DNA from: Bacteroidota bacterium
GTDB lineage: Bacteria > Bacteroidota > Bacteroidia > 2-12-FULL-35-15
Length of the DNA stretch: 64,000 nucleotides
Direction of reading: 5' to 3'
NCBI GenBank assembly: GCA_025963725.1
Contig: JAOQAE010000006.1
Span: 558,001 to 622,000 of the forward strand
Positions 3,001 to 21,159 of this stretch are shown here, one piece after another (position 1 is the stretch's first letter; each line of letters opens with the position of its first letter). The position numbers and the translations under genes are program-made. The notes beneath the pieces were generated by a model. It ran no database searches and was not told the origin of the DNA. It saw only the letters and a program-made list of their open reading frames with translations.

Positions 3001-6000
3001 ATTATCGCGGTTAATATCCTCGGAGTTCGGTGTTCCGGAAGTAGGGCCCGGGGTTGGATAGGTGGCCACCTGCTGGTACTGTGCATTGGTCCTCGAGTTC
3101 TGCTCAAGGCCATTCCAGCGCTTGTACCTTCCAAGTGTTTTCACACCGTTGGCATCGTAATCCGATCCGCGGAAGTAATGGAAATCATCACCGGAAGGGT
3201 CATCGGAAAAACTTCCATAGACCGATGAAGAAACATTCGCCGCAACCCGTGTTAAATAGTTTTGAAAAAAGCTTTGCTCCTGCGCATTATCCCAGCCATC
3301 GAGCCCCACATCCTGCGCAGCACGGTCGCCTTCATCGGTATTAAATGCATTCACCAGCGGCTGCACCAATGGAACACGGCCCCAGATGGTTGTATCGGTC
3401 GGCAGGTTCTGTCCTGCATTCTGGTCGGCTGTGCTTGGCGCTGGCAACACATTCTCCGCGCTTTTATATCCGTCGTGCAATACATCCTCTGACACATTAC
3501 CGATGTTGAAATACAGCTCACCCGTTGTATTCCAGTTCACGAGCGGGTTATCGCTGTTGAACGGATCCATCACCCAGAACTGGATGTATTCAATATTGGT
3601 CGCTTCAAAATCGTTCGTGGAGATCGACCGCATGATCCCGCCCCAGCGTGATGCAGGATCCTTCAGGGTTCCGTCGGTGTTCAGACCGGCAGCTGTCGCA
3701 GTTGAATCCGTATTGTAATTGTAAGGCCCGCGCTCCGATGGATAATAAGCAAGGTCAAAGGTTGTGATATTGCTTACCTGCCCGGTAGGCGATTGCTTGT
3801 TAGGGAATACCTCTGTTTCCGGGATCTCACGGGCAAAGTTGTTCGACATCTCGGTAGGGGTCTGCGTTACTGTCGGCGTGTTTGTTTCCGAGCGCTGCAG
3901 GATCGGGTCGATCGCATACCAGGCAAGCTTTGCACGGTTGTAGCCGAATGCAAGGCTATTCACCGAATCCGCTTCCGGGAACAGGCTTGGCTGCCCCTGC
4001 GGCGTGCTCGCAAGGCTCCAGGTTCCCTGCTGGCGAAGGTCGATCGTCGACTGGCTGCCTTCAAAGTCGTCCACATACGAATTCCCGTCCTTGCCAATGG
4101 CCTTGCTGTGGCCCGGAATAAGGTAAGCAAACTCGCCCGCTGCCGTGATCGTACTCATCTCCTTTGTTTCAAGGAAGGGGAGCTTATCGATCAGGCGTGT
4201 AAGGAAAGGTGCATCGGTACGGTAATTTCCGTCAAAGCCCCAGATCGTATTCCTGATCGGCTCATCGCCCTGGTTCACCTTTTTGGTCAGCGGCCGCTCC
4301 GTAAGGTTCATCACGGTGGCGCCTATATTAAAGTCTTTATTGATGCGGTAATCGAGGTGGGTCCCAAAGAGCGTCTTCGACTGGATCGCAAACAGGGCAT
4401 TACTCTCGAGCGAGATCTTGATCGGGGTGCCGGAATTTAAGATCCCTTCATTCACGATCTTCAAACGGCCGAGAGTGTAATCCACGGTGTAATCCACATT
4501 CTCGGTCAGCTGCACGCCGCCTGCAGTTACAGTTACAGAGCCCTGAGGAACGTTCGGCGCACCGAGGGAGATCTCGGAGCCGGAAGCCGACTGGTACTGC
4601 CCTTTGATCTTAAAGCGGTTCAGGTTCGGGAATTGCTGTGCCGATGTTTTCGTGGAATCGTACAATGGATCGAACACATACCTGTTGGCTTCGGTAGCAT
4701 CGCAGCCTCCATCGAACTTCGAGCGGAGAAAATCCCCGAAAGGCTCTACTACCGGAAAGATCACGCGGCCGTTGTTGGAGTTGATCGTAACCCCATCCAC
4801 ATAATCGAACACGCCATCGGGCACCTGGTCGCTTTGCGCATTCAGCCTGTCGAGGTTCAGCACCTGGATCAGCGGCTTGCCTTTGATCTGCGTCTGGCAT
4901 TCGGAAACCGGGAGGTAATTAATATCGGTACCTGTTGCCGAGTTGGTATAGAATACATCCAGCTTAAAGTCTTTTGAATTCACCTGGTAAGCCCCGATGG
5001 AGTATACGTTCTTCATCATCAGGTTCCAGATCGGGTAACGCGTATTCGGCGCATCGGCCTTCAGCATTTTCAGGAAAAGGATACTTGGCGCGCTGATACC
5101 GCCATCCGAGAATTCACCTACATTATAGGTTTGTCCCTGCGCAGTATATTGATAGGCAACTGCAAGCACCTGCTCGGGGTTCAGCTGCTGGTTCAGGGAG
5201 ATAAATCCGAGGCGTGCGTTTAATGTGTACTCGGAAGGCTGAAGCTTGCGCATGTTCTGCTTCATGAAACCGATGCTCTGCTGTAAAGGTGTGCCTGAGG
5301 TAATTGCAGGAACCGCGGTACTTGTGGCACGTGTGCCTGTAAGCGCTACCATGTTTTGATAAAGCGTATTCTGGTCATTGAACGGCAGGGCGCCCGCTGC
5401 ATTGTCAAGGATATAACCGGTTGCTGTAGGAGTAATGTGGTTGGGAGTTCCGGGATCTTCCGCTAGGTCGGCAAAGCTGATCGCTTCACGTACATCATTG
5501 GTTGCACCGTTCGAATTCGTCACCCACACTTCCACCCTGTTGATGTTCACGCTGGAGCTGATGAATGGCAGCCCTGCCAGCGCCGAGTTGAACTGGTCGC
5601 GGAAATACTGCCCGAGGAAAAAGTGCCTGTTGTACTCGTATGCATCGCCGGCAACTTCATACTTGCTTACCTGCGCGCCGCCGGTTACTTCCACTTCCGA
5701 CTTTTTACCTTTCTGCTGTGATAAGATACTGGTAACGGTAAGCCGTCCGAACTGCAATTGCGTTTTCACGCCGAAGAGCGTCTGGCTTCCGGTGATCAGC
5801 GAGCCGTTCAGCGGCATGCTTACGTTACCTGCCTCTATCTTCTTGATGATCTCATCCTCATAGCCGGTGTATTCCAGCTTCATCTGGTTCTCGTAATCGA
5901 AGGTTGCTTCGGTGTTGTAGCTGGTAGTTAATTTCAGCTTGTCGCCGATCTTTCCAACCACGTTGAGCTGGATCTTTTCATCAAAGTCGAAAGTGCTGAT

Positions 6001-6619: not shown

Positions 6620-7207
6620 TTACAGATTTTTTAATGCTCCCTTGATTAATTGCTCAACAGTTTGTCCTGTGCCTTCTGTGCGAATGATCTTATCCAGCAC
6701 TTTATCTGCGGCGGCTTTATTGAAGCCTAACATCACGAGTGCAGATAACGCTTCTTCTTTTAATGTATTGTTTCCGGATGTAAAAAATTCCGAGCTGAGC
6801 TCTTCCTTGCCCATTTTGCCTTTCAGGTCGACGATGATCCGCTGTGCCGTTTTCTCGCCGATGCCTTTCACGCTCTTTATCAGCGCCACGTTCCCGGTTA
6901 CGATCGCATTCTGGATCTCGGCGGCGCTCAGCGATGAAAGCATCAGCAAAGCGCTGGTGCCTCCTACCCCGGAAACGGAGACCAGCTGCCGGAACAGGCT
7001 TCTTTCTGCCGTATCCGCAAAGCCAAAGAACCTTGGCATATCATCCCGCACATATAATTGTTCTGTGTACAATTTGCATTGCTCATTCTCAGCGATCTTT
7101 GAAAAGGTGTTCAGTGAGATCTGCATCACATAGCCAACTCCCGAAGCTTCTATCACTGCATACGTTGGTGTTTTCTCTACCAGTTTCCCGCTGATGTGGT
7201 TGATCAT
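6620..7207 (-). CDS. ruvA: Holliday junction branch migration protein RuvA
   Basis: This 195-residue protein has the usual RuvA length. It starts MINHISGKLVEKTPTYAVIE (OB-fold domain I), has the tandem helix-hairpin-helix region (VSGVGGTSALLMLSSL, then SVKGIGEKTAQRIIVDLKGK) and a short C-terminal domain III (ALVMLGFNKAAADKVLDKI) that contacts RuvB. RuvA binds four-way junctions as a tetramer and loads the RuvB motor. The partner ruvB is in the same window but about 18 kb away and in its own context (25326-26357). The gene lies between maeB and sprA on the same strand, 63 nt after maeB and 7 nt before the sprA start. Confidence 0.97.
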   Translation of the reverse strand: MINHISGKLVEKTPTYAVIEASGVGYVMQISLNTFSKIAENEQCKLYTEQLYVRDDMPRFFGFADTAERSLFRQLVSVSGVGGTSALLMLSSLSAAEIQNAIVTGNVALIKSVKGIGEKTAQRIIVDLKGKMGKEELSSEFFTSGNNTLKEEALSALVMLGFNKAAADKVLDKIIRTEGTGQTVEQLIKGALKNL

Positions 7208-7270
7208 ATTTATTTGTTGTTATAGAGACGCCCGCTTATAATTTTGGTTGCCTTTGTCAGAACTTTTCGC

Positions 7271-9544
7271 TTATTGTTTTTTTGCCTGTGCATCGATCAC
7301 GGCAATGGTAACCATATTCACGATCTCACGCACGGAGCTTCCAAGCTGTAAAATGTGAACAGGCTTCTTCATCCCGATGAGCACGGGGCCTATCGCTTCG
7401 GCTCCGCCCATTTCCTGGATCAGCTTGTAGGCAATGTTACCGGATGCCAGATTAGGAAAAATAAGGGTATTCACCTTTTTATCCACGAGGTCGGAGAACG
7501 GGAACTGCTCTTTCAGCAATTCGTTGTTGAGCGCAAAGTTCGCCTGCATTTCGCCATCCACGATCATTCCCGGGTAGTTCTTGTGCAGCAGGTCCACCGC
7601 ATCGCGCACCTTGTTCGGCAGCTCGCCTTCTGCCGACCCGAAGTTGGAGTACGACAGCAATGCAATGCGCGGCGTGATGTTGAACTGCTTCACGCTGTTG
7701 GCGGTAAGCACGGTAATATCCACCAGCTCCTGCACGGTAGGGTCCACGTTCATTGTTGTATCCGCGAAAAAGAAAGGGCCCTGTTTGGTGTTGAGGATGT
7801 ACATCCCGGCCACCCTGCTCACGCCTTCCTGCACGCCGATGATCTGCAGCGCCGGACGGATAGGATCGGCATATTTACGTGTAAGGCCCGAGATCATTGC
7901 ATCGGCGGCCCCGGTTTCCACCATCATGGCGCCGAAATGGTTCCGCTCTTTCATGATCTTGCGCGCTTCATACAGCGTAAAGCCCCTGCGCTGGCGTTTC
8001 TTGAAGAACAGGTCGCCAAAGGCGTACCGCCTGTCTTCCTCGGATTTGCTGCGCGGATCAATGATAGGAATGTCGCCCAGGTCAAGATTGTTCTCTGCGA
8101 TCAGCTTCCTGATCTTTTCCACATCGCCCAGCAGGATCGGCTTGGCAATGCCTTCATCGGCCACCTGCTGCGCAGCTTTCAATATTTTATAATGATCCGC
8201 TTCGGTGAATACCACGCGCTTCGGATTCTGCTTTGCTTTGTTGGTCACATTCCTGATCAGCTTGTTATCGAGGCCAAGCCTGTTGATCAGCTCATTCACA
8301 TACGCATCCCAGTTGGTGATCTTATACTGCGCCACGCCGGATTCCATGGCTGCTTTGGCCACCGCAGGCGCAACGGTGTAGATCAAACGCGGATCGATCG
8401 GCTTTGGAATGATGTACTCCGGGCCGAACACAATGTTCTTTGAATCGTAAGCGAGGTTCACCGTATCGGGCACTGCCTCTTTCGCCAGCTGCGCAATGGC
8501 GTACACTGCGGCAAGCTTCATGGCTTCGTTGATCTGCGTAGCGCGTACATCGAGCGCACCGCGGAAAATGAATGGAAAGCCAAGCACGTTGTTCACCTGG
8601 TTAGGATGGTCGCTGCGGCCGGTTGCCATGATGATGTCCTTGCGCGCTGCCATTGCATCGGCATACGGGATCTCAGGATCGGGGTTTGCCAGCGCAAACA
8701 CGATCGGGTTCTTCGCCATGGAGCGGACCATGTCCTGGTTCACTACGTTGCCTTTGGAAAGTCCGACAAATACATCGGCATCCTTCATCGCTTCGGCAAG
8801 CGTTTTTACTTTTGTATTGCTTGTTGCAAAATGTTTTTTCTGCTCGTCGAGGTCCTCGCGCTCAATGCTCAGCACGCCTTTGCTGTCGAGCATGATGATG
8901 TTCTCTTTTGTGGCGCCTACCGCGATGTATAATTTCGCGCAGGAAATGGCGGAAGCGCCGGCGCCGTTCACCACGATCCTTACATCGGCTAATTTCTTTT
9001 TAGCCACCTCACAGGCATTAAGCAGCGCTGCGGCGGAAATGATGGCTGTTCCGTGCTGGTCGTCATGCATGAGCGGGATCTTCAGCTCTTCCTTCAAACG
9101 GCGCTCGATCTCAAAGCATTCCGGGGCTTTTATATCTTCAAGGTTGATCCCTCCGAATGTCGGGGAGATGGCTTTAACAGTATTTACAAATGTATCAATG
9201 TCGGTGGCATCCACTTCAATATCGAACACATCGATATCGGCGAAGATCTTGAACAGCAATCCTTTTCCCTCCATCACCGGCTTTGAAGCGAGCGCGCCAA
9301 TATTACCGAGCCCAAGAACGGCGGTACCATTGGAGATCACGGCAACCAGGTTTCCTTTGGCGGTATATTTATAGGCATCTTCGGGGTTCTTTTCTATCTC
9401 TAAACAGGGCTCCGCAACACCGGGCGAATAGGCCAGGGAAAGGTCGCGCTGTGAGCTGTGCGGCTTGGTAGGTACAACTTCAATTTTGCCCGGTCTTCCC
9501 TGCGAATGATAATCTAACGCATCCTGCTTTCTGAATTTTGACAT
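7271..9544 (-). CDS. maeB: NADP-dependent malic enzyme (MaeB type, fused to phosphotransacetylase-like domain)
   Basis: The 757-residue length matches the large MaeB class. Residues 1 to about 425 are the malic enzyme: LAYSPGVAEPCLEIEKNPED, the catalytic region KGNLVAVISNGTAVLGLGNI, MHDDQHGTAIISAAALLNA and the Rossmann motif VVNGAGASAISCAKLY. Residues from about 430 to the end are a phosphate acetyltransferase-like domain (KRVVFTEADHYKILKAAQQV, GAADAMISGLTRKYADPIRP). In this class the second domain is generally regulatory (acetyl-CoA sensing) rather than catalytic. The enzyme decarboxylates malate to pyruvate with NADP reduction in the cytoplasm. It starts with ATG at 9544, divergent from the sirtuin gene across 177 nt. 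Confidence 0.97.
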   Translation of the reverse strand: MSKFRKQDALDYHSQGRPGKIEVVPTKPHSSQRDLSLAYSPGVAEPCLEIEKNPEDAYKYTAKGNLVAVISNGTAVLGLGNIGALASKPVMEGKGLLFKIFADIDVFDIEVDATDIDTFVNTVKAISPTFGGINLEDIKAPECFEIERRLKEELKIPLMHDDQHGTAIISAAALLNACEVAKKKLADVRIVVNGAGASAISCAKLYIAVGATKENIIMLDSKGVLSIEREDLDEQKKHFATSNTKVKTLAEAMKDADVFVGLSKGNVVNQDMVRSMAKNPIVFALANPDPEIPYADAMAARKDIIMATGRSDHPNQVNNVLGFPFIFRGALDVRATQINEAMKLAAVYAIAQLAKEAVPDTVNLAYDSKNIVFGPEYIIPKPIDPRLIYTVAPAVAKAAMESGVAQYKITNWDAYVNELINRLGLDNKLIRNVTNKAKQNPKRVVFTEADHYKILKAAQQVADEGIAKPILLGDVEKIRKLIAENNLDLGDIPIIDPRSKSEEDRRYAFGDLFFKKRQRRGFTLYEARKIMKERNHFGAMMVETGAADAMISGLTRKYADPIRPALQIIGVQEGVSRVAGMYILNTKQGPFFFADTTMNVDPTVQELVDITVLTANSVKQFNITPRIALLSYSNFGSAEGELPNKVRDAVDLLHKNYPGMIVDGEMQANFALNNELLKEQFPFSDLVDKKVNTLIFPNLASGNIAYKLIQEMGGAEAIGPVLIGMKKPVHILQLGSSVREIVNMVTIAVIDAQAKKQ

Positions 9545-9721
9545 CTTCTGGTTTTTATGAATTGCGAATATAAGAATTTATCAATAGAAATAAGTCCCTG
9601 CGCACAATTTGCCCCCCTAAAATTGTTTTTTAAATTTAAATTTTTACTTTTATATTCTATGCGTTTTTAAAAGGCGGCAAACCCTTTTTTTTGTCCTGAA
9701 AACATCATAGCGCCAAAATTT

Positions 9722-10411
9722 ATGAAACCAACATTAGTTGTATTTACAGGAGCCGGGATCAGTGCCGAAAGCGGGATCAAAACCTTCCGCGACAGCGGCG
9801 GGCTTTGGGAGGAATACGACATTAACGAAGTGGCGACGCCGCAGGCCTGGGAAAAGAACAGGGGCCTTGTGCTCGAATTTTACAACAAGAGAAGAAAGCA
9901 GGTAATGGAAGCGAAGCCCAATGCGGCGCATTATGCTTTGGTGGAGCTGGAGAAAAAATACGATGTGCACATTATCACGCAAAACATCGACGACCTGCAC
10001 GAGCGCGCCGGCTCAACAAAGGTGCTTCACCTCCACGGCGAGATCATCAAATCCCGCAGCACGGTTGACCCTTCGCTCACCTACACCATCAATGGATCGG
10101 ATATAAAGCTGGGAGAAAAATGTGAAAAGGGATCACAGCTCCGCCCGCACATTGTATGGTTCGGCGAAATGGTCCCGCAGATGGAAACAGCCTATGTGAT
10201 CGCTGAAAAGGCCAATATATTCATGGTTGTAGGCACTTCCATGGCGGTGTATCCTGCCGCCGGACTGATCGATTATACACCGGAGGACATCCCGAAATAT
10301 CTCATCGATCCGAGCGATGTAAAGATCACGGGGATCAGGAACCTGAAGGTGATCAAAGAAAAAGCCAGCATCGGGCTGCCGCAGCTGGCAAAAGAGCTGC
10401 TTGCTCAGTGA
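9722..10411 (+). CDS. cobB: NAD-dependent protein deacylase, sirtuin family (CobB-like)
   Basis: This is a compact 229-residue sirtuin. It shows the NAD-binding GAGISAESGI near the N terminus, TQNIDDLHERAG (residues 86-97), the catalytic His105 in HLHGE, and RPHIVWFGE. Tyr54 and Arg57 in EFYNKRR match the Tyr-x-x-Arg pair that lets E. coli CobB accept succinyl-lysine, so desuccinylase activity is likely. The four-cysteine zinc knuckle is absent: only Cys134 is present between the HGE and RPHIVWFGE motifs. The product removes acyl groups from lysines using NAD+ in the cytoplasm. The gene faces maeB divergently, and its last 7 nt overlap the 3' end of the convergent secreted-protein gene. Confidence 0.94.
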   Translation: MKPTLVVFTGAGISAESGIKTFRDSGGLWEEYDINEVATPQAWEKNRGLVLEFYNKRRKQVMEAKPNAAHYALVELEKKYDVHIITQNIDDLHERAGSTKVLHLHGEIIKSRSTVDPSLTYTINGSDIKLGEKCEKGSQLRPHIVWFGEMVPQMETAYVIAEKANIFMVVGTSMAVYPAAGLIDYTPEDIPKYLIDPSDVKITGIRNLKVIKEKASIGLPQLAKELLAQ

Positions 10412-11829
10412 GGGATCACCACGAACTTCTTCACTGCAACATAACTCCCCTCCTTACCGAGCGCATAAAAATAAACCCCGGGCATTAAGCCGGAAACATC
10501 CGATTTTACTGAGCCGCGGGCAGCATTCAATTGTTCGCGCAGCATTTCCTTCCCCGCCATATCGTAAATAACAAAGCTCGAAACTGCCCCGCTTCCTGCT
10601 TCATAATCAACCCGGATCCAGCTGCCGGAGGGATTTGGAAAAGCATCTGAAATGTATGCTTCGTTTTCCGGAGACGGGATCCCGCTCAGCAAGCCGCTCT
10701 GATCGAGCTTTAACAAATAGTATTCTTCCGTGGTGCTGAATGTTTTCCCGGTGATGATGAATCCGTTGTTATCAACCGATCTTATCAGTTCGTAGCCGAT
10801 GTCGATCCCGCTGCCGCCGTAAGTTTGCTTCCATTGGAACACGCCGTTCTGATCCACTTTCAGGATCACGAGGTCGAGCGGGCCGCCGCCGTTATAGCTG
10901 TTGCTGTAGCCGGTGCAAATGAAGCCGCCGTCAGCATCCTCCCGCGCCGAAAAGATCGCATCCGTTCCTGTACCGCCGTAAGTATACCGCCACAAGCTTC
11001 CGCCCAAGGGAGCGATCTTTTCAAGGTAAAAATCAAAAGGGGAAGCCGGGAAAACTTCCGTTTCGCCATAAGACAGATAATTGCCGTCCGACACCAGCAA
11101 TAAGCCCTGGCAGCCATTCTGCAGCGTATCGCCGTAGGTTTGCGACCAGATCTCGTTGCCCAGCGAATCGAGCTTGTAGAGGATCACATCATAGCCGCCG
11201 GCTCCATAGCTTCTTGTATCGGCAGTTAAGATATAATCCGTTCCAACCTGGTGCACCATGTCGGAATATTCATTATCGGTGCGCCCCAATGTTTGATGCC
11301 ATGCGTAATCGCCATTGCTGTCGAGCTTTAGCAGCAGGATGTCGTTATGCCCCGAAAGGTCGCTCTGTGAGCCGCAGATAATGTAACCGCCATCGGCAAC
11401 CTGCTCGATGTACCGCGGATTTTCATTCACCGGACTGGCAAATGCTTTATTCCAGATCACGCCGCCGGCTGTGTCTACCTTATAGATCAGCACATCCATA
11501 TCACCGGGATTGGTCTCGCTTTCCGCAACAAATACAAAATTGCCATCCGCGGTGGTGTTGAGATAAAATGCATTTTCAATGTTCGGGGTGCCGTAGTAAA
11601 TGGTCCAGATCTCGTTCCCCTGGCTGTCGAGCTTCGTCAGGGAAATATCGCCTGCGCCAATTGTTCCTGCATCGGAATTGCCTAACACGTAAATGCTTCC
11701 GCTTGCCAGCTGCTTTACCGAACGCGAATGGTCATTGCCTGCCGTGCCATAGATCTTTTCGAAATAGGCAGGCTGGGCCTGAAGGACAGGGCTTAACAGG
11801 AGAACAAGGTATATTAAAAACCTTTGCAT
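10405..11829 (-). CDS. T9SS-secreted beta-propeller-like repeat protein
   Basis: The start is taken as ATG 11829, which gives a clean signal peptide (MQRFLIYLVLLLSPVLQAQ); an in-frame TTG at 11835 is also possible. The body (residues about 25-390) holds about seven blades of roughly 50 residues built around phrases such as KLDSLGNEIWSQTYG, KVDQNGVFQWKQTYGG and DGGFICTGYS. These alternate a per-item record strand with an aromatic strand, as in secreted propellers of this phylum. The last 80 residues are a type A sorting domain (AFPNPSGSWIRVDY ... PGVYFYAL ... VKKFVVIPH), so the protein should be exported and anchored or released through T9SS. Its ligand is unknown. A TATATTTG box at 11833-11840 lies almost on the start codon. 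Confidence 0.88.
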   Translation of the reverse strand: MQRFLIYLVLLLSPVLQAQPAYFEKIYGTAGNDHSRSVKQLASGSIYVLGNSDAGTIGAGDISLTKLDSQGNEIWTIYYGTPNIENAFYLNTTADGNFVFVAESETNPGDMDVLIYKVDTAGGVIWNKAFASPVNENPRYIEQVADGGYIICGSQSDLSGHNDILLLKLDSNGDYAWHQTLGRTDNEYSDMVHQVGTDYILTADTRSYGAGGYDVILYKLDSLGNEIWSQTYGDTLQNGCQGLLLVSDGNYLSYGETEVFPASPFDFYLEKIAPLGGSLWRYTYGGTGTDAIFSAREDADGGFICTGYSNSYNGGGPLDLVILKVDQNGVFQWKQTYGGSGIDIGYELIRSVDNNGFIITGKTFSTTEEYYLLKLDQSGLLSGIPSPENEAYISDAFPNPSGSWIRVDYEAGSGAVSSFVIYDMAGKEMLREQLNAARGSVKSDVSGLMPGVYFYALGKEGSYVAVKKFVVIPH

Positions 11830-11832
11830 TCT

Positions 11833-11840
11833 CAAATATA
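11833..11840 (-). promoter_or_regulatory. -7 box TATATTTG overlapping the start of the propeller-protein gene
   Basis: On the minus strand the octamer TATATTTG matches the Bacteroidota -7 consensus TAnnTTTG. It ends 3 nt before the preferred ATG (11829), so transcription would begin at or next to the start codon. I see no TTG at the expected spacing, so the assignment is tentative. Confidence 0.35.
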
Positions 11841-11930: not shown

Positions 11931-13184
11931 ATGAAAAAATACATACATCTCCTGTCCATCTTCATTTTCATGATCATTCAGCAGGCTTCTTCACAAACCT
12001 ATGTAAGCGGTGGAATTTATTCAAACACCACCTGGACACTTGCCAATAGCCCTTATATTACTAACAATATTGTTGTTTTTCCCAATGTAACATTAACCAT
12101 CGAACCCGGTGTGCATATAGAGGCTACAGGAGGAATCGAGGTCCGGCAAGCCACTATTATTGCAGAAGGAACAACCAGCGATTCGATCATCTTCAACGCA
12201 AATAGCAGCAGCTTCCCACTGCTAAATCTGAATGAGGCCCATTCTTCAAAGATCAGTTTTTGCTCATTTCAGAATGCTTCCCTAATAGGACTGAAGATTA
12301 AAATGTATTCTCCGGCCGACAGCCTCGTCGTGCGTCATTCTGCCTTTTTGAATAATTTCCGTGGCACCACCTATTTTGATGGCAATGCCCGTATAGACAG
12401 TTGTCACTATGAAAACAACTCAAGTGGAATAGTACAGTGTTACATCCCGGTAAGCAATACCCTTTTTAAAAACAATGCCATTGGAATTGAGGTGGCGCAC
12501 AACTCAACCATTCTTAACTGTTCTTTCGATTCTAATTCGGTGGCCGGCATTCAGCTTACTTATAATAATGAAATTAAAAATTGTCACTTTACATATAATC
12601 ATATCGGGATTGAGTCCCAGTCGCAAGGAGCGGGATCTGTCATCCAGTTCAACACTTTTGAAAACAACAACATCGGGGTAAAGCTGGAAGACGAATATCC
12701 TGTGAATACAATATCCTGCAACACCATTTGTAATAACACTGTTTCTTTTACAACCACCAGGAGCTACAACAGCAATGTTTCATATAATTACTGGTGTACT
12801 GCAGATTCGGCTGCAGTTGCTGCAAGCATATACGACGGATATGATGACGTGAGCATGGGCCTGATCTCTTTTATGCCAATTGACACGTTGAATTGCGCGG
12901 CAATGACCACAGGCTTCGGCACTATAACGGGCAGCGACCCCTCTTACAGCATTTATCCCAATCCGTTCAGCCGGCAGGCGGACCTTTATTTTAGTAATCC
13001 GCAAAATGGAAAGGCGGAAATGGCTATTTATGATTCTTCAGGAAAATCAGTATTAATTATCCGGGATATTAGCCTGGGGCATATCAGCATAGAACGCAGC
13101 GGCTTAGCAGCCGGGCTCTACTTTTTTCAACTGCGGAAGCCAAATACTGAACTGATAACAGGTAAGTTTATAATTAGCGATTGA
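11931..13184 (+). CDS. T9SS-secreted right-handed beta-helix protein
   Basis: This 417-residue protein begins with a signal peptide (MKKYIHLLSIFIFMIIQQAS, cleavage after SSQ). Residues about 30-310 are a parallel beta-helix of the NosD/pectate-lyase fold: GVHIEATGGIEV, then rungs such as DSCHYENNSSGI, LFKNNAIGIEVAHNSTI, FDSNSVAGIQLTYNNEIKNC and FNTFENNNIGVKL, with the asparagine ladders typical of such helices. The last 75 residues are a type A T9SS sorting domain (YSIYPNPFSRQADLYF, AAGLYFFQL, GKFIISD). Many homologous helices bind or cleave polysaccharides, but no catalytic residues can be assigned. Codon choice is more AT-rich than in neighbouring genes, a possible sign of different origin. 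Confidence 0.88.
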   Translation: MKKYIHLLSIFIFMIIQQASSQTYVSGGIYSNTTWTLANSPYITNNIVVFPNVTLTIEPGVHIEATGGIEVRQATIIAEGTTSDSIIFNANSSSFPLLNLNEAHSSKISFCSFQNASLIGLKIKMYSPADSLVVRHSAFLNNFRGTTYFDGNARIDSCHYENNSSGIVQCYIPVSNTLFKNNAIGIEVAHNSTILNCSFDSNSVAGIQLTYNNEIKNCHFTYNHIGIESQSQGAGSVIQFNTFENNNIGVKLEDEYPVNTISCNTICNNTVSFTTTRSYNSNVSYNYWCTADSAAVAASIYDGYDDVSMGLISFMPIDTLNCAAMTTGFGTITGSDPSYSIYPNPFSRQADLYFSNPQNGKAEMAIYDSSGKSVLIIRDISLGHISIERSGLAAGLYFFQLRKPNTELITGKFIISD

Positions 13185-15843: not shown

Positions 15844-15874
15844 TTGTGAAAGTATTGTAAATACGTTAAATTCG
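15844..15874 (+). promoter_or_regulatory. Promoter of the secreted Omp28-like gene
   Basis: TTG (15844-15846), 20 nt spacer, TAAATTCG (15867-15874). The -7 box differs from TAnnTTTG by one base, the same TTCG variant as at 22438. It lies 52 nt before the start codon at 15927. Confidence 0.5.
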
Positions 15875-15926
15875 TTGTTGCCAAAAAAGAATAAGAATAA
15901 TCTTAATAACCCTAAACCCAATTCAA

Positions 15927-17822
15927 ATGAAAAAATCTACCTTATTAGTGAGTATGCTCGCTTTGGGAACTGTCGCTTTCGGGCAGTCGCAGCGCCTCGT
16001 ACTCGCAGAAGAGTTCACGCAGGCATCCTGCGGTCCCTGCGCTGCACAAAACCCTGCTTACAATGCCTTGTTATCTGCAAACACTTCTAAAGTGGTTTCT
16101 ATTAAATACCAGACAAACTGGCCGGGTACTGATCCGATGAACGTGCAAACGCAGAGCTTTGTAGGCCCGCGCGTTACGTATTATTCCGTATCCGGTGTTC
16201 CTGATTCACCGATGGACGGGGTTGAGCAAACCGGCGCAAGCTATACAGGCGCTCCTGCCAACTATACCCAGGCTGCGATCGATGCAGAATATGCGGTGCC
16301 ATCACCTTTCACGATCAACGTGAGCCACACATTCTCTCCTGATTACGATTCAATTTTTATCACCTGCGTGATCACTGCATCACAGAACTTCACACCGGTT
16401 GGCGCACTGAAAGCGCACGTTGCAATGGTTGAGCAGACCATCGACTTCGCAACCCCTCCGGGAACGAACGGTGAAACAGAGTTTTTCAACGTAATGCGCA
16501 AAATGTATCCATCGGCTGCAGGAACAACCCTTCCTACATCATGGACTACAGGACAAACTCAAACACTTACATTTGCAAGCGCAATCCCTACCTATATCTA
16601 CAGGAAAGCGGAGATCGGAATTGTTGCGTTCATCCAGGACGACGGAAACAAATCGGTGAAGCAGGCAGGATACAGCGTGCCGCAGCCGATCCCTGTCGAC
16701 ATCGGGGCTACAGCAGTAGCAGGTATTCCATTATACCAGTGCGCAACTTCGTTCACACCGACCGTAACGATCACTAACTTCGGAACAACCACGCTTACTT
16801 CATGCGACATCAATTACAAAATTGATGCTGGAGCGATCCAGACAATGCCATGGACAGGCTCCCTTGCATCCGGCGCAACTGCAACAGTAACACTGCCTGC
16901 TCAAACAACAACTGCAGGCGGACACACTTTCACAAGCTACACCAGCAACCCGAACGGGGGAACAGATTTCGACGGCGCTAACAACCAGACCGTAAAATCA
17001 TTCGCTATCGTTGGAAACGGCGCTTCGGCTCCATTGGTGGAAGGCTTCACTGCAACTGCATTCCCTCCTGCAGGATGGTTCATCAGCAATGCTGATAACG
17101 GCCCTACATGGACACGCAAAACAGGCGCAGGCGGATTCGGTACTTCTACAGCTTGTGCTAAAATGGACTTTTACAACAGCACCAGCGGTAATGTTGACGA
17201 GATCTACTCGAAAAATCTTGACCTTACAGGCGCTTCCGGCGTGAACCTGACGTTCAACGTTGCTTATGCTCAGTACTCTACCGAGAATGACAAAATTGAA
17301 GTGAAAGTTTCCACTAACTGCGGCGCTACATGGGCTACTGTTTACAACAAGGCAGGATCTACCTTATCAACCGCAACAGCTACCACATCAGCGTTTACTC
17401 CTACTGCAACACAGTGGAGGGCAGAAACTGTCAGCTTGGCTTCTTACATCGGACAGTCGAACGTGATGATCAAGTTTGTTGCTACCAGCGCATACGGTAA
17501 CAATGCTTACATCGATGACATCAACATCACGAACCTTGCTACAGGCATTGCAGAATCAGCGCTTGAGAACAGCCTGAACGTTTATCCTAACCCGATGACC
17601 GACAATGCTACCGTTAGCTTTACACTTGCTGAATCAGCGAATGTGAACGTGGTGCTTGTGAATGCACTCGGACAGGTAGTGATCAATGCAGAGCTTGGCA
17701 GCATGAGCGCAGGCGAGCAAAGCTACCTGCTGAACACAGAAGCATTAAGCAATGGACTGTACTTCCTGAATGTTCAGGTTGGCAAGAACACCATTACCAA
17801 AAAGGTTTCTGTAAACAAATAA
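15927..17822 (+). CDS. T9SS-secreted Omp28-like thioredoxin-fold protein with choice-of-anchor J domain
   Basis: The 631-residue protein has a signal peptide (MKKSTLLVSMLALGTVAFGQ). The next domain (about 21-260) is Omp28-like with a thioredoxin fold: LVLAEEFTQASCGPCAAQNP puts Cys35 and Cys38 in a CGPC pair, and YYSVSGVPDSPMDG supplies the cis-proline region. A middle Ig-like segment (about 265-370) is followed by a choice-of-anchor J/MAM-type jelly roll (about 372-540; GFTATAFPPAGWFISN, KMDFYNSTSGNVDEIYS, YIGQSNVMIKFVATS) and a type A sorting domain (NVYPNPMTDNATVSF, SNGLYFLNVQVGK). It is probably exposed outside the cell as a redox-active or disulfide-handling protein. It precedes a TlpA/DUF6029/Omp28 operon, separated by a terminator. 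Confidence 0.9.
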   Translation: MKKSTLLVSMLALGTVAFGQSQRLVLAEEFTQASCGPCAAQNPAYNALLSANTSKVVSIKYQTNWPGTDPMNVQTQSFVGPRVTYYSVSGVPDSPMDGVEQTGASYTGAPANYTQAAIDAEYAVPSPFTINVSHTFSPDYDSIFITCVITASQNFTPVGALKAHVAMVEQTIDFATPPGTNGETEFFNVMRKMYPSAAGTTLPTSWTTGQTQTLTFASAIPTYIYRKAEIGIVAFIQDDGNKSVKQAGYSVPQPIPVDIGATAVAGIPLYQCATSFTPTVTITNFGTTTLTSCDINYKIDAGAIQTMPWTGSLASGATATVTLPAQTTTAGGHTFTSYTSNPNGGTDFDGANNQTVKSFAIVGNGASAPLVEGFTATAFPPAGWFISNADNGPTWTRKTGAGGFGTSTACAKMDFYNSTSGNVDEIYSKNLDLTGASGVNLTFNVAYAQYSTENDKIEVKVSTNCGATWATVYNKAGSTLSTATATTSAFTPTATQWRAETVSLASYIGQSNVMIKFVATSAYGNNAYIDDINITNLATGIAESALENSLNVYPNPMTDNATVSFTLAESANVNVVLVNALGQVVINAELGSMSAGEQSYLLNTEALSNGLYFLNVQVGKNTITKKVSVNK

Positions 17823-17841
17823 AATAAGCTATCGATAAAAT

Positions 17842-17893
17842 AAATCAGCAGTTTTGGTCTGTTTTTTGAACAACCACTGCTGATTTATTTTTT
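17842..17893 (+). terminator. Rho-independent terminator after the Omp28-like cargo gene
   Basis: AAATCAGCAGT (17842-17852) pairs perfectly with ACTGCTGATTT (17876-17886) and is followed by ATTTTTT. The 11-bp stem with a T-tail closes the upstream gene and separates it from the tlpA-like operon. Confidence 0.85.
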
Positions 17894-17898
17894 ACTCA

Positions 17899-17906
17899 TA
17901 TCTTTA
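17899..17906 (+). promoter_or_regulatory. -7 box TATCTTTA before the TlpA-family gene
   Basis: TATCTTTA differs from TAnnTTTG in the last base only and lies 16 nt before the ATG at 17923, directly after the terminator. No clear TTG is seen upstream. Confidence 0.35.
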
Positions 17907-17922
17907 AGCACCCTTATTACAC

Positions 17923-18438
17923 ATGAAAAAGATCTTCTTATCATTTGCGGTTATGATCGCATGCATTGCTGCGCACGCGCAGACCAACTCCGGAAGCACC
18001 ATCCCGGCCGTGGACGTTAAAACGATTGATGGCAAAACCATTAACACCTCCAAGTTTTCGAACGACGGAAAGCCGATCATCATCAGCTTCTGGGCAACCT
18101 GGTGCAAGCCCTGCAAAAAAGAGCTGGATGCCATCGCGGAAGATTATGCTGAATGGCAGAAGGAAACCGGCGTAAAGCTGATCGCCATCTCTATCGACGA
18201 TGCAAGAAGCTCGAGCAAGGTAGGCCCCGATGTTAAAAGCAAAGGCTGGGAATATGAAGTGTACGTGGATGAAAATTCCGATTTCAAGCGCGCCATGAAT
18301 GTGAACAACGTGCCGCATACCTTCATTATCGACGGCAACGGAAAGATCGTATGGCAGCACAATTCCTATGCGGAAGGCGATGAGGAGCACCTGCTCGAAG
18401 CGCTCCGCAAAATTGCCAAAGGAGAAAAAGTAAACTAA
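17923..18438 (+). CDS. TlpA-family periplasmic thiol-disulfide oxidoreductase
   Basis: This 171-residue protein has a cleavable signal peptide (MKKIFLSFAVMIACIAAHAQ) and one AhpC/TlpA thioredoxin domain. The active site is FWATWCKPCKKEL with Cys61 and Cys64, and the cis-Pro loop is VNNVPHTFIIDGNGKIV. Such proteins act in the periplasm as reductants for specific partner cysteines. It is the first gene of an apparent operon with the DUF6029 barrel (17 nt downstream) and the Omp28-like lipoprotein. The three genes tend to stay together in Bacteroidota, from memory, so the partner disulfides are probably in those proteins. No general cytochrome-maturation context is seen here. Confidence 0.92.
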   Translation: MKKIFLSFAVMIACIAAHAQTNSGSTIPAVDVKTIDGKTINTSKFSNDGKPIIISFWATWCKPCKKELDAIAEDYAEWQKETGVKLIAISIDDARSSSKVGPDVKSKGWEYEVYVDENSDFKRAMNVNNVPHTFIIDGNGKIVWQHNSYAEGDEEHLLEALRKIAKGEKVN

Positions 18439-18455
18439 TCAGAACCCATTTTGGT

Positions 18456-20129
18456 GTGAAAAAAAATCATTCGAAAAAATTAACCGCTGCGGCTTTTATC
18501 TTCGGCTTCACCCTAATCAGCAACACCTCTGTTGCACAATTATTAAACAATCTCAGCACCATGGACCTGGGCGATGTGCATGGAAATTTCCAGGCGAACG
18601 CACAGTATTACATTCCCGATTCAACCATCGGGGCTGCTGAAGTGCCTGAGAAAATGCTTTTCAACGGCTTTGCAAACATCCTGTACACCAAGGGCAAATT
18701 CACGGCGGGCATCCGCTACGAAAGCTACCTGAACGCCATACAGGGCTATCCTACCGGCTTCAAAGGCACAGGCATTCCTTACCGTTTCGCCTCCTACAAA
18801 TCAGATTTTTTAGAGATCACCGTCGGTAATTTTTACGAGCAGTTCGGGAACGGGCTTACGCTCAGAACCTACGAAGAGCGCAACCTCGGCCTCGACAATG
18901 CGCTTGACGGCGTACGCATCAAGGCGGAGCCGATCAAAGGCGTTTACCTGAAAGGCTTGATCGGGAAGCAGCGCAGCGGCTTTACACAGGGCCCCGGACT
19001 TGTGCGCGGCTTCGACGGAGAGATCCAGATCAATGAAGCAGTAGCCGCATTTACCGATAAAAAGCTGGTGGTTTCCATCGGTGGAAGCTTTGTGAGCAAA
19101 TACCAGGAAGACCGCGACCCTACGCTTGTACTGCCTGTTAATGTTGGTAATTCGGCCGGACGATTGAGATTGTCGCGGAACAATTTCAGCCTCAACGGCG
19201 AATACGCCTATAAAATAAACGATCCTTCCACCGATAACGGCTTCAATTATAAATCGGGCGAAGCAATGCTCCTGCAGGCAAGCTACGCTACCAAAGGATT
19301 TGCCTTGCAGCTTTCCGGCTCGCGCATCGACAACATGAGCTTCCGCTCCGACCGCAACGCGCAGCTCACGAACCTCCTGCTCAATTACATTCCTGCGCTG
19401 AACAAGCAGCATACGTACAGCCTGCTCACCTTCTATCCATACGCTTCACAGTCGAGGAACGAAATGGAATACTCCGCAGAGCTGAAATACAAATTCAAAA
19501 AGGAAAGCCTCCTCGGCGGAAAATACGGTACCGAGATCCTCATTAATTATTCCGGCTCCAACAGCCTCGACACCACTCACCTCGACCCCATCACAGACAC
19601 GGTGCGCCATGGCTATACCACCAATTACTTCGGTATGGGCAAAGAAGTTTACTTCCGCGATTTGTATGTGGAGATCAACAAAAAATTCAACAAGAAATGG
19701 AAAGCAACGCTGATCTATGCTTACCAGGTTTATAACAAGGATGTGATCCAGAAGCCCGGCGGCGGAATGATCTTTTCCAACATTGCGGTGCTGGATGTCA
19801 CCTATAAATTCAAGGCCGAAAGCGCATTGCGCCTCGAGCTGCAGAACCTTGCCACGCGCCAGGACCACCAGGACTGGGCTTATGCACTGCTTGAATACAC
19901 CATTAACACCAACTGGTATGTTGCCGTGGGCGACCAGTACAACTACGGGAACGAGCATGCGAAAGAACGCTATCATTATTACAACGTAAGCGCCGGCTAT
20001 ATCAAGAATGCCAACAGGATCGAATTAACGTACGGCAAGCAGCGCGAGGGGATCTTTTGTGTAGGAGGCGTATGCCGCAATGTTCCCGCCTCCAACGGCG
20101 TTACATTAACAATCACCAGCAGTTTTTAA
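18456..20129 (+). CDS. DUF6029-family outer-membrane beta-barrel protein
   Basis: The start is GTG at 18456 (GTG AAA AAA), 17 nt after the tlpA-like stop, giving a signal peptide ending near SNTSVAQ. The 557 residues are mostly alternating amphipathic strands with aromatic girdles, as in a large barrel: KGKFTAGIRYESYLNAIQGY, GNFYEQFGNGLTLRTYEERN, ALDGVRIKAEP and a C-terminal VTLTITSSF. The text closely resembles DUF6029 proteins I remember from Flavobacterium. Cys535 and Cys540 (CVGGVC) lie just before the final strand, and this CX4C pair also appears in the relatives I recall. Function is unknown; I infer an outer-membrane partner of the thioredoxin-like proteins on either side. Confidence 0.85.
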   Translation: MKKNHSKKLTAAAFIFGFTLISNTSVAQLLNNLSTMDLGDVHGNFQANAQYYIPDSTIGAAEVPEKMLFNGFANILYTKGKFTAGIRYESYLNAIQGYPTGFKGTGIPYRFASYKSDFLEITVGNFYEQFGNGLTLRTYEERNLGLDNALDGVRIKAEPIKGVYLKGLIGKQRSGFTQGPGLVRGFDGEIQINEAVAAFTDKKLVVSIGGSFVSKYQEDRDPTLVLPVNVGNSAGRLRLSRNNFSLNGEYAYKINDPSTDNGFNYKSGEAMLLQASYATKGFALQLSGSRIDNMSFRSDRNAQLTNLLLNYIPALNKQHTYSLLTFYPYASQSRNEMEYSAELKYKFKKESLLGGKYGTEILINYSGSNSLDTTHLDPITDTVRHGYTTNYFGMGKEVYFRDLYVEINKKFNKKWKATLIYAYQVYNKDVIQKPGGGMIFSNIAVLDVTYKFKAESALRLELQNLATRQDHQDWAYALLEYTINTNWYVAVGDQYNYGNEHAKERYHYYNVSAGYIKNANRIELTYGKQREGIFCVGGVCRNVPASNGVTLTITSSF

Positions 20130-20140
20130 ACACATTGCAA

Positions 20141-21049
20141 ATGAAAAAATACATTTCCTTTTTACCGGCTTTCCTGATCGCGCTTGCTTTCACATCCTGC
20201 GATTATGTAGCCAACCCGAACGAAACGCTTTCCGGCGGCTCCACTGTTGATACCAGCGGGCTCGATTCAAACCTTGTGCACAGGAGAAGAGTGCTGGTGG
20301 AAGATTACACCGGGCATAAATGTCCGAATTGCCCGCAAGCCGCAATTGTTGCGCAGCAGCTGATCAACACCTACGGCGATTCGGTTGTGGTGATCGGCGT
20401 GCATGCAGGATTTTTTGCCAATCCCACCACACCGCTGGGCGCACCGGCAGGTTCTTACCTTACCGATTTCAGGACAAGTGCCGGAACCACTTACGACAGC
20501 CCCACCTATTTCGGGATCTCCAATGCGGGCAACCCGAACGGGATGATCAACCGGAGGTATTACACGCCAACTACCACCAATCACATTATCTATCACACCT
20601 CCTGGAACGCGGAAGTGGCTTCGCTGCTGGCATTGCCGCCTGTGGCCGACCTGAGCGTGCATACCACTTATAATGCATCAACGCGCACTGTCAGCATTTC
20701 AACCGTTTCACAATTCATCAGCGACACGCTTGTCAGCGGAAGCTATAACCTTGTGGTGCTGATGACGCAGGACAGCATCGTGGAATGGCAGCAGGACGGA
20801 AGCACCCACATTCCGAACTATGTGCACAGGCATGTGCTGAGAACGGCGATCAGCCCGATGTGGGGTGATGTACTCACCACAGGTACCGTGAACCCGCATG
20901 CATTGCTGGGCAAAACATATTCTTATACCTTACCTACTGCATTCCTCGGCAACAACTGCGACGAAGAGCATTGCCACATAGTCGCTTTTATTTACAACAC
21001 GGCCAATTACGAGGTGATCCAGGCTGCGGAAGCCAAAGTGACGCCCTGA
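20141..21049 (+). CDS. Omp28-related lipoprotein with CPNC thioredoxin motif
   Basis: The ATG at 20141 is chosen because it opens a lipoprotein signal (MKKYISFLPAFLIALAFTSC, lipidation at Cys20); the frame is open further upstream, but that extension has no leader. The mature part is an Omp28-like thioredoxin-fold domain with LVEDYTGHKCPNCPQAA (Cys61, Cys64), a cis-Pro-like region near FGISNAGNPNGMINR, and a late cysteine pair in NNCDEEHCHIVAF. Omp28 of Porphyromonas gingivalis is a surface protein, so an outer-membrane site is likely. It starts 11 nt after the DUF6029 stop and ends the operon. The dicysteine motif suggests electron or disulfide exchange with the TlpA-type protein and the barrel. 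Confidence 0.88.
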   Translation: MKKYISFLPAFLIALAFTSCDYVANPNETLSGGSTVDTSGLDSNLVHRRRVLVEDYTGHKCPNCPQAAIVAQQLINTYGDSVVVIGVHAGFFANPTTPLGAPAGSYLTDFRTSAGTTYDSPTYFGISNAGNPNGMINRRYYTPTTTNHIIYHTSWNAEVASLLALPPVADLSVHTTYNASTRTVSISTVSQFISDTLVSGSYNLVVLMTQDSIVEWQQDGSTHIPNYVHRHVLRTAISPMWGDVLTTGTVNPHALLGKTYSYTLPTAFLGNNCDEEHCHIVAFIYNTANYEVIQAAEAKVTP

Positions 21050-21125: not shown

Positions 21126-21159
21126 AAACGCTTTGCTGATTGGCAAAGCGTTTCTTTTT
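21126..21159 (+). terminator. Rho-independent terminator of the TlpA-DUF6029-Omp28 operon
   Basis: AAACGCTTTGC (21126-21136) pairs perfectly with GCAAAGCGTTT (21143-21153) around TGATTG, followed by CTTTTT. It overlaps the promoter elements of the next gene. Confidence 0.88.

Follow-up and report, generated by a model that had tools for sequence, protein, structure and literature searches.

We analyzed a 64,000-nucleotide stretch (hereafter, the window) from the genome of a Bacteroidota bacterium of the 2-12-FULL-35-15 lineage (assembly GCA_025963725.1, contig JAOQAE010000006.1, positions 558,001 to 622,000), in which four adjacent genes encode an Omp28-like protein with a C-terminal domain (CTD) of the type IX secretion system (T9SS), a TlpA-type periplasmic thiol oxidoreductase, an outer-membrane beta-barrel of the DUF6029 family and an Omp28 lipoprotein (Table 1). 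Comparison across the phylum shows that this locus is one instance of a thiol module that is conserved and inherited together and that has an outer-membrane barrel of its own. The adjacency of the four genes and every cysteine position given in the initial annotation agree with the open reading frames, which are separated by 100 bp (T9SS-tailed gene and TlpA), 17 bp (TlpA and DUF6029) and 11 bp (DUF6029 and Omp28). The last three genes are thus spaced as in the operon that had been suggested, and the assignment of the T9SS-tailed gene to a separate unit is plausible because an inverted repeat separates it from the TlpA gene. The consensus terminator scan, which has a loop limit of 8, did not report this repeat; in the region as a whole it detected 5 sites, fewer than in shuffled sequence (mean 7.9). 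A fifth gene of interest, encoding a PorA-family T9SS cargo, lies outside the segment considered in the initial annotation (15844-21049).

Table 1. Genes and sequence features at the DUF6029 locus (window coordinates)
Feature	Position	Strand	Specifics
PorA-family T9SS cargo, P0005	13283-14047	-	signal peptide; N-terminal domain with C81-x4-C86; type A CTD
T9SS-tailed Omp28-like protein, P0001	15927-17822	+	CGPC, C35/C38 (codons 16029-16031 and 16038-16040); type A CTD
Terminator-like inverted repeat between the T9SS-tailed gene and TlpA	17837-17891	+	arms 17837-17852 and 17876-17891, perfect over 16 nt; spacer 23 nt
TlpA-type periplasmic thiol oxidoreductase, P0002	17923-18438	+	W60; WCKPC, C61/C64 (codons 18103-18105 and 18112-18114)
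DUF6029 outer-membrane beta-barrel, P0003	18456-20129	+	GTG start; usher-like fold, 24 strands (model count)
CX4C codons, C535-VGGV-C540 (CVGGVC)	20058-20075	+	codons 20058-20060 and 20073-20075; predicted last extracellular loop
Omp28 lipoprotein, P0004	20141-21049	+	lipobox C20; CPNC, C61/C64 (codons 20321-20323 and 20330-20332); HBP35-like model
Terminator-like hairpin 3' of the Omp28 gene	21126-21153	+	from the terminator scan

The barrel protein P0003 matches DUF6029 (PF19494) with 616.5 bits (cut-off 27, E = 5.4e-185) over positions 15-538 of the 538-position model and contains exactly two cysteines; DUF6029 is its sole Pfam match at E 0.001, with no usher family detected. P0002 contains the thioredoxin fold of the AhpC-TSA/Redoxin family (PF00578; 80.3 bits, cut-off 26) and a WCxxC motif, and C61, C64 and P131 are invariant across 38 aligned rows; it scores 93.4 against the curated ResA model NF002854, for which the cut-off is 170, and is a TlpA-like relative, not ResA. 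The lipoprotein P0004 matches Omp28 (PF11551) with 87.2 bits (cut-off 34.9, E = 1.5e-24) and comes within 0.3 bits of the cut-off of the Omp28-family lipoprotein model NF033782 (149.7 vs 150); its lipobox cysteine, C20, is invariant in 55 aligned Omp28 rows. P0001 is evidently a T9SS type A cargo (PF18962; 52 bits vs cut-off 27, E = 8.7e-14). The initial annotation as an Omp28 protein holds for P0001 in a remote sense only: PF11551 does not match it at E 0.001, and pairwise BLAST against P0004 gives nothing better than E 0.98, but a profile of 55 neighboring lipoproteins, in the training of which P0001 took no part, matches its residues 20-247 (E = 3.1e-15 in a one-sequence search), and both P0001 (38.8 bits, E = 6.9e-10) and P0004 (38.7 bits) show sub-threshold similarity to NF045500, the Omp28-related selenoprotein model (cut-off 200), which suggests a distant relationship. 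The score of P0001 against the iterated Omp28 hidden Markov model (171.7 bits) is not independent because P0001 was among the training rows.

The Pfam search of 395 Bacteroidota genomes detected DUF6029 in 98, with a single copy in the source genome. Outside the window, 97 loci in 96 genomes were analyzed in two batches, of 60 (L032-L091) and 37 (L172-L208); one further locus with a weak Pfam match (L209, genome G227) was excluded because our own DUF6029 model found no DUF6029 there. The cysteine pair with four intervening residues (CX4C) was found in all 95 intact loci, that is, near the C-terminus in 58 of the 60 loci of the first batch (51 CxGGxC, 7 CxxGxC), the exceptions being one frameshifted (L066) and one truncated (L068) gene, and in all 37 loci of the second. 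In the alignment of 97 rows, from which L068 was left out, C535 is conserved in 100% and C540 in 99%, the lone exception being the frameshifted row; together with a few glycines, E336 and P313, these are the most conserved columns of the family, and both cysteines are also invariant in 28 diverse DUF6029 proteins. The members in family f25 match the Pfam model weakly. An additional set (L092-L171) consists of the best 80 of at least 581 relatives, of which 79 passed the filter and 76 entered alignment A2; since the CX4C motif itself served partly as the search pattern, the motif frequency in this set carries no weight here. Alignment A3 comprises 54 of its 75 listed loci, and A4 comprises 37 of 74. 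Elsewhere in the barrel, residues 124-152 (window 18825-18911) form a strongly conserved motif, FYEQFGxG...R..YEER.LG.DN, predicted to lie in or before an outside loop. A sequence search of DUF6029 against solved structures returned RecA chains alone (best E 6.2e-5, no stretch being significant by itself), which we judged to be noise.

With all reading frames searched, TlpA adjoins DUF6029 in 48 of the 60 first-batch loci, the two genes being divergent in 5 of these and sharing a strand in 43; in 2 more Omp28 lies between the two, and the genes are adjacent in 35 of the 37 second-batch loci. The other 10 genomes of the first batch encode a TlpA homolog elsewhere, 9 of them at 50-60% identity and G216 at 40%; in G216, TlpA and DUF6029 may be linked after all because both are near contig ends. 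The two second-batch exceptions (G128 and G164) likewise carry a TlpA homolog elsewhere in the genome. Across 141 loci with 1.16 Mb of flanking sequence, there was one TlpA match at 3 kb or more from DUF6029, and 124 of the 125 TlpA neighbors of DUF6029 contain WCxxC. With scoring applied to the top 9 first-look candidates of each genome, as was also done for the PorA-like searches below, the TlpA subfamily (E<=1e-30) was identified in 86 of the 98 DUF6029 genomes vs 0 of the 297 others (p = 2e-74). Taken together, cysteine conservation, TlpA linkage and co-occurrence rule out a chance association. A natural fusion of the two proteins was found in G292 (L042, 7530-9533), where one open frame of 667 residues contains a single signal peptide (by eye) ahead of TlpA and the two matches abut (257938-258420 for TlpA, 258409-259938 for DUF6029); such a fusion would keep TlpA tethered at the periplasmic end of the barrel. 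An apparent fusion in L062 was rejected: the frame is over-extended, and TlpA is encoded separately in another one.

Omp28 is the third constituent. It was detected in 83 of the 395 genomes, 76 of which also encode DUF6029 (p = 2e-52), leaving 7 Omp28 genomes without DUF6029, some of them weak matches, and 22 of the 98 DUF6029 genomes without an Omp28 match. In the first batch, the Omp28 gene is directly downstream of DUF6029 in 37 of 60 loci and upstream in 14. Over all loci examined, CxxC is present in 113 of 113 downstream Omp28 proteins (8 of these by eye). Both the cysteine pair of the barrel and the neighborhood, whose lack of conservation would have refuted the initial annotation, are conserved. 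In the second batch, a thioredoxin-like gene is directly downstream of DUF6029 in 32 of 37 loci, 14 of these proteins scoring highest as Omp28 and 18 as TlpA/redoxin-like. The latter are found in family f25 (18 loci, L190-L207), where the gene order is TlpA, DUF6029 and one or two redoxin-type thioredoxins, mostly with CxHC, which occupy the Omp28 slot in 18 of 18 loci. By crude patterns, 14 of these 18 loci have a copy with a T9SS-type tail, 11 a lipobox-like site and 7 both; in L198, for example, both scanned proteins are redoxins, the first with a lipobox (by eye) and the second with a T9SS tail. Two thioredoxin-fold families thus share the slot in similar formats, which favors a need for an exported CxxC over a need for a particular protein. 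A 689-residue Omp28 with two CxxC units is encoded beside DUF6029 in G230 (L059, 3390-5459, minus strand). A selenocysteine in the neighboring Omp28 of G031 was considered and rejected, given that the TGA at the end of the Omp28 frame is no evidence for it. As for the export route itself, the T9SS translocon SprA is encoded in 303 of the 395 genomes and in 97 of the 98 with DUF6029, G230 being the exception (overlap by eye).

A fifth component is suggested by the surroundings of the module. Proteins of about 250 residues with a T9SS tail and C-x3/4-C occur near it in 79 of 179 stretches overall, and in 37 of the 98 phylum-wide stretches. In the window this protein is P0005, of which Pfam and NCBIfam recognize the tail alone (T9SS type A CTD, 53.1 bits vs cut-off 27). 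A 60-row profile of the N-terminal domain has as its best PDB match PorA of Porphyromonas gingivalis (6kjk_A, E = 5.5e-8; next match 0.087), and the alignment runs through PorA's own CX3C. With a smaller profile of 15 rows, 6kjk_A was found at 0.0017, level with an unrelated chain (0.0019), and with P0005 alone as the query it was not among the PDB matches at E<=10. The PorA-type alignment (A6) took 59 of 76 rows, and because all of them had passed a filter for C-x3/4-C, its cysteine conservation is biased whereas the PorA match is not. By the larger profile, the P0005 family is homologous to PorA in its N-terminal domain.

P0005 is the only PorA-like match of the source genome at E<=1e-4. A PorA-like gene (E<=2e-8) is present in 69 genomes, and 58 of the 98 DUF6029 genomes carry one, located within 10 kb of the module TlpA or DUF6029 in 49 and within 1.5 kb of TlpA in 40; 7 genomes with weak A6 matches (E >2e-8, six of them covering just about the first 43-74 positions) are outside these proximity counts. 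In all ten first-batch genomes where TlpA was not found beside DUF6029, the PorA-like gene is located 58-276 bp from the TlpA homolog encoded elsewhere. A strict tie of PorA to DUF6029 is contradicted by 11 PorA-like genomes without DUF6029 and 40 DUF6029 genomes without a PorA-like match. The C-x2/4-C pattern is kept in 17 of the 18 PorA-like loci fetched from genomes with and without DUF6029. Among genomes without DUF6029, L211, L214, L216 and L217 carry short PorA-like frames (162-195 residues, CSMC), and L210, L212, L213, L215 and L218, from genomes of family f9, carry PorA-like proteins with C-x4-C. Beside the module in G066 (L074), two long frames (6863-8374 and 8400-9887, minus strand) contain repeated PorA-like domains. 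In P. gingivalis, PorA (PG2172) and an Omp28 lipoprotein (PG2173) bear consecutive locus tags (PMC9722745).

The structural model of DUF6029 (77 sequences; mean predicted local distance difference test score 90.7, predicted template modeling score 0.84) is a barrel in which we counted 24 strands, plus a small hairpin that carries C535 and C540. Both the strand count and the sidedness were read from the DSSP string and the loop lengths. The loops alternate between long (mean 14.5 residues, taken as outside) and short (mean 4.4, inside), so that both termini would be periplasmic and the loop 529-546 with the cysteine pair outside; by this parity, the pair is predicted to be in the last extracellular loop. 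The nearest solved folds among the Foldseek matches listed are the FimD/PapC pores (E = 2.2e-9), and superposition on 3ohn_A (Z 18.5, 378 aligned residues, root-mean-square deviation 4.5) identifies the usher barrel fold; AlgE and OprD-type pores are also among the 50 fold matches listed. The model of Omp28 (55 sequences; mean score 90.7 on the first of these scales) consists of a strand, CPNC, a helix, a later conserved P132 and then a beta-domain, its best solved fold being HBP35 (5y1a, E = 7.5e-11). The thioredoxin-like character of Omp28 stated in the initial annotation is therefore supported by the model for P0004. HBP35 is reported to reduce insulin, for which both cysteines are required (PMC2907840).

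Considering these components together, we propose that TlpA, DUF6029, the thioredoxin-fold lipoprotein and the T9SS-exported partners make up an envelope-spanning thiol-disulfide relay, a reading to which we assign a probability of roughly 0.5. Under this scheme, TlpA would be recharged at the inner membrane, where homologs of DsbD and VKOR, both encoded in the source genome, provide for a reducing and an oxidizing partner. TlpA might then dock at or within the periplasmic opening of the wide barrel and exchange disulfides with the CX4C pair of the last loop, which in turn would exchange with the CxxC of the surface lipoprotein; the lipoprotein could maintain the proper redox state of T9SS-exported proteins, here the Omp28-like P0001 and the PorA-family P0005, and of other thiols at the surface. 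Transfer of reducing power outward seems likelier than the reverse. Computation supplies the components of this scheme, their linkage and co-occurrence, the conserved cysteines, the wide-barrel model and the thioredoxin-like Omp28 model; contact between the parts, the surface position of the lipoprotein and passage through the barrel are the steps we would add. Of the relay outlined in the initial annotation, the parts, their linkage and the conserved cysteines accordingly stand, and it is the transfer, its direction and the final substrate that we infer.

Several observations weigh against the relay, the strongest objection being the side on which the cysteine pair lies. According to the model, surface partners could reach the pair, and periplasmic TlpA would have to enter the lumen, or the loop fold inward; how TlpA would reach outward-facing cysteines is the main gap in the proposal. 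The tight CVGGVC hairpin could also be a purely structural disulfide. The DsbD_2 family has no match in the source genome. The hbp35 gene also complements an Escherichia coli dsbA mutant (PMC2907840), so that the relay might run in the other direction. Of the 60 first-batch loci, 9 have no nearby Omp28, and among the CxxC frames of these 9 loci no thioredoxin-like gene besides TlpA was recognized; a lipobox-like pattern, crudely defined, is present in just 88 of the 113 downstream Omp28 frames. Furthermore, the strict TlpA threshold is missed by 12 of the 98 DUF6029 genomes (11 of the 12 have TlpA beside DUF6029 by a looser score, and in the twelfth, G227, the DUF6029 match is itself doubtful), the TlpA profile derives from TlpA proteins of the module, and the co-occurrence p-values overstate independence because the genomes are related.

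The first of the competing explanations to be weighed is biogenesis. TlpA-type proteins such as CcmG and ResA serve maturation, and TlpA could handle periplasmic disulfides for the folding or export of the barrel and Omp28; the CX4C pair would then form a structural disulfide, closing the last loop and playing no part in electron transfer. The position of the pair within a short hairpin, formed by strands 532-536 and 539-543 of the model, fits this possibility, as does the presence of exactly two cysteines in 29 of the 60 first-batch barrels, a count in keeping with the relay as well. We nevertheless regard it as rather unlikely, given that the cysteines are among the few invariant residues of an otherwise widely diverging barrel and that a barrel-specific folding helper leaves unexplained the frequent downstream CxxC protein and its swap for another thioredoxin family.

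Greater doubt attaches to a role of the usher-like barrel as a translocon that carries the thioredoxin-fold lipoprotein to the cell surface and works with TlpA on the periplasmic side. FimD/PapC pores let folded domains through, and as translocation pores they are the best solved folds for the barrel; moreover, the Omp28 gene directly follows the barrel gene in 37 first-batch loci. This explanation appears improbable to us in view of the 7 Omp28 genomes without DUF6029 and of the CX4C pair, which it leaves unaccounted for, a shared barrel fold in itself showing no function. It would be more surprising still if DUF6029 were a porin for polysaccharides or small molecules, with the redox genes incidental: an HHpred remark in a passage of PMC9603273 links some Wzi-barrel matches to DUF6029, and AlgE and OprD-type pores share the fold, but the neighborhood and the co-occurring genes point to thiol proteins and the cysteines are conserved, so that we consider this reading highly unlikely. 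A heme conduit was rejected, as no CxxCH was found by eye in the translations of P0002, P0003 and P0004.

The proposed relay can be compared with several known systems. In MtrCAB, a periplasmic carrier, an outer-membrane barrel of 26 strands and a surface lipoprotein are arranged according to the same plan, and an Mtr chain (6r2q_B) is among the Foldseek matches of the DUF6029 model (rank 12, E = 4.8e-8). The module described here differs in that it lacks CxxCH heme sites, would operate by thiol exchange, has 24 counted strands and possesses a cysteine pair in the barrel itself, and we claim no homology. DsbD, CcdA and ScsB are membrane proteins that pass thiol electrons between thioredoxin-fold partners, but they span the inner membrane with helices, in contrast to the outer-membrane barrel of this module. 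The thioredoxin-fold lipoproteins of the pneumococcal Etrx1/Etrx2-CcdA-MsrAB2 system serve surface proteins in a Gram-positive bacterium, where there is no outer membrane to cross. The ushers have 24 strands, and FimD/PapC resemble DUF6029 in their wide barrel fold; however, structural alignments give about 9-11% identity, and no usher Pfam family matches at E 0.001. HBP35 of P. gingivalis, a surface protein with a thioredoxin motif, is itself a T9SS cargo, unlike P0004, a lipoprotein encoded with TlpA and the barrel. PorA (PG2172/PGN_0123) has the homologous N-terminal domain with CX3C and a T9SS CTD, and is reported upstream of PorXY-SigP in T9SS control, its reported role being to signal to that pathway (PMC7712824); the paper nowhere uses the word "disulfide" in its main text. 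A more speculative extension of the relay, which we think improbable, is that DUF6029 functions as a thiol wire: TlpA would enter the lumen as MtrA does in MtrB, electrons would travel by way of the surface-facing CX4C to the thioredoxin-fold lipoproteins as well as to the CX3-4C of PorA-family proteins, and the redox state of PorA would report surface conditions via PorXY-SigP, where present, and set T9SS expression.

We know of no route by which thiol reducing power crosses the outer membrane. None was described in the titles and opening abstracts searched in open-access PMC (subscription journals being largely outside this search), and in the literature covered DUF6029 appears as a keyword and in the remark in PMC9603273 mentioned above, which concerns some of the Wzi-barrel matches. 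If the relay is real, it would explain how T9SS bacteria control the thiols of exported proteins outside the cell and would assign a shared function to DUF6029, Omp28 and perhaps PorA. Any claim to novelty depends on the relay; what is firmly established is the linked module.

The SprA_N domain of the translocon gene sprA is located in the window at 1651-3261 on the minus strand (G000:C6:559651-561261), about 13 kb from the gene for the T9SS-tailed Omp28-like protein, and in G045 sprA is about 10 kb from DUF6029 on the same contig. Near the PorA-like gene of the window, two genes (10405-11835, minus strand, and 11931-13184, plus strand) encode products whose ends, by eye, resemble those of T9SS cargo proteins.

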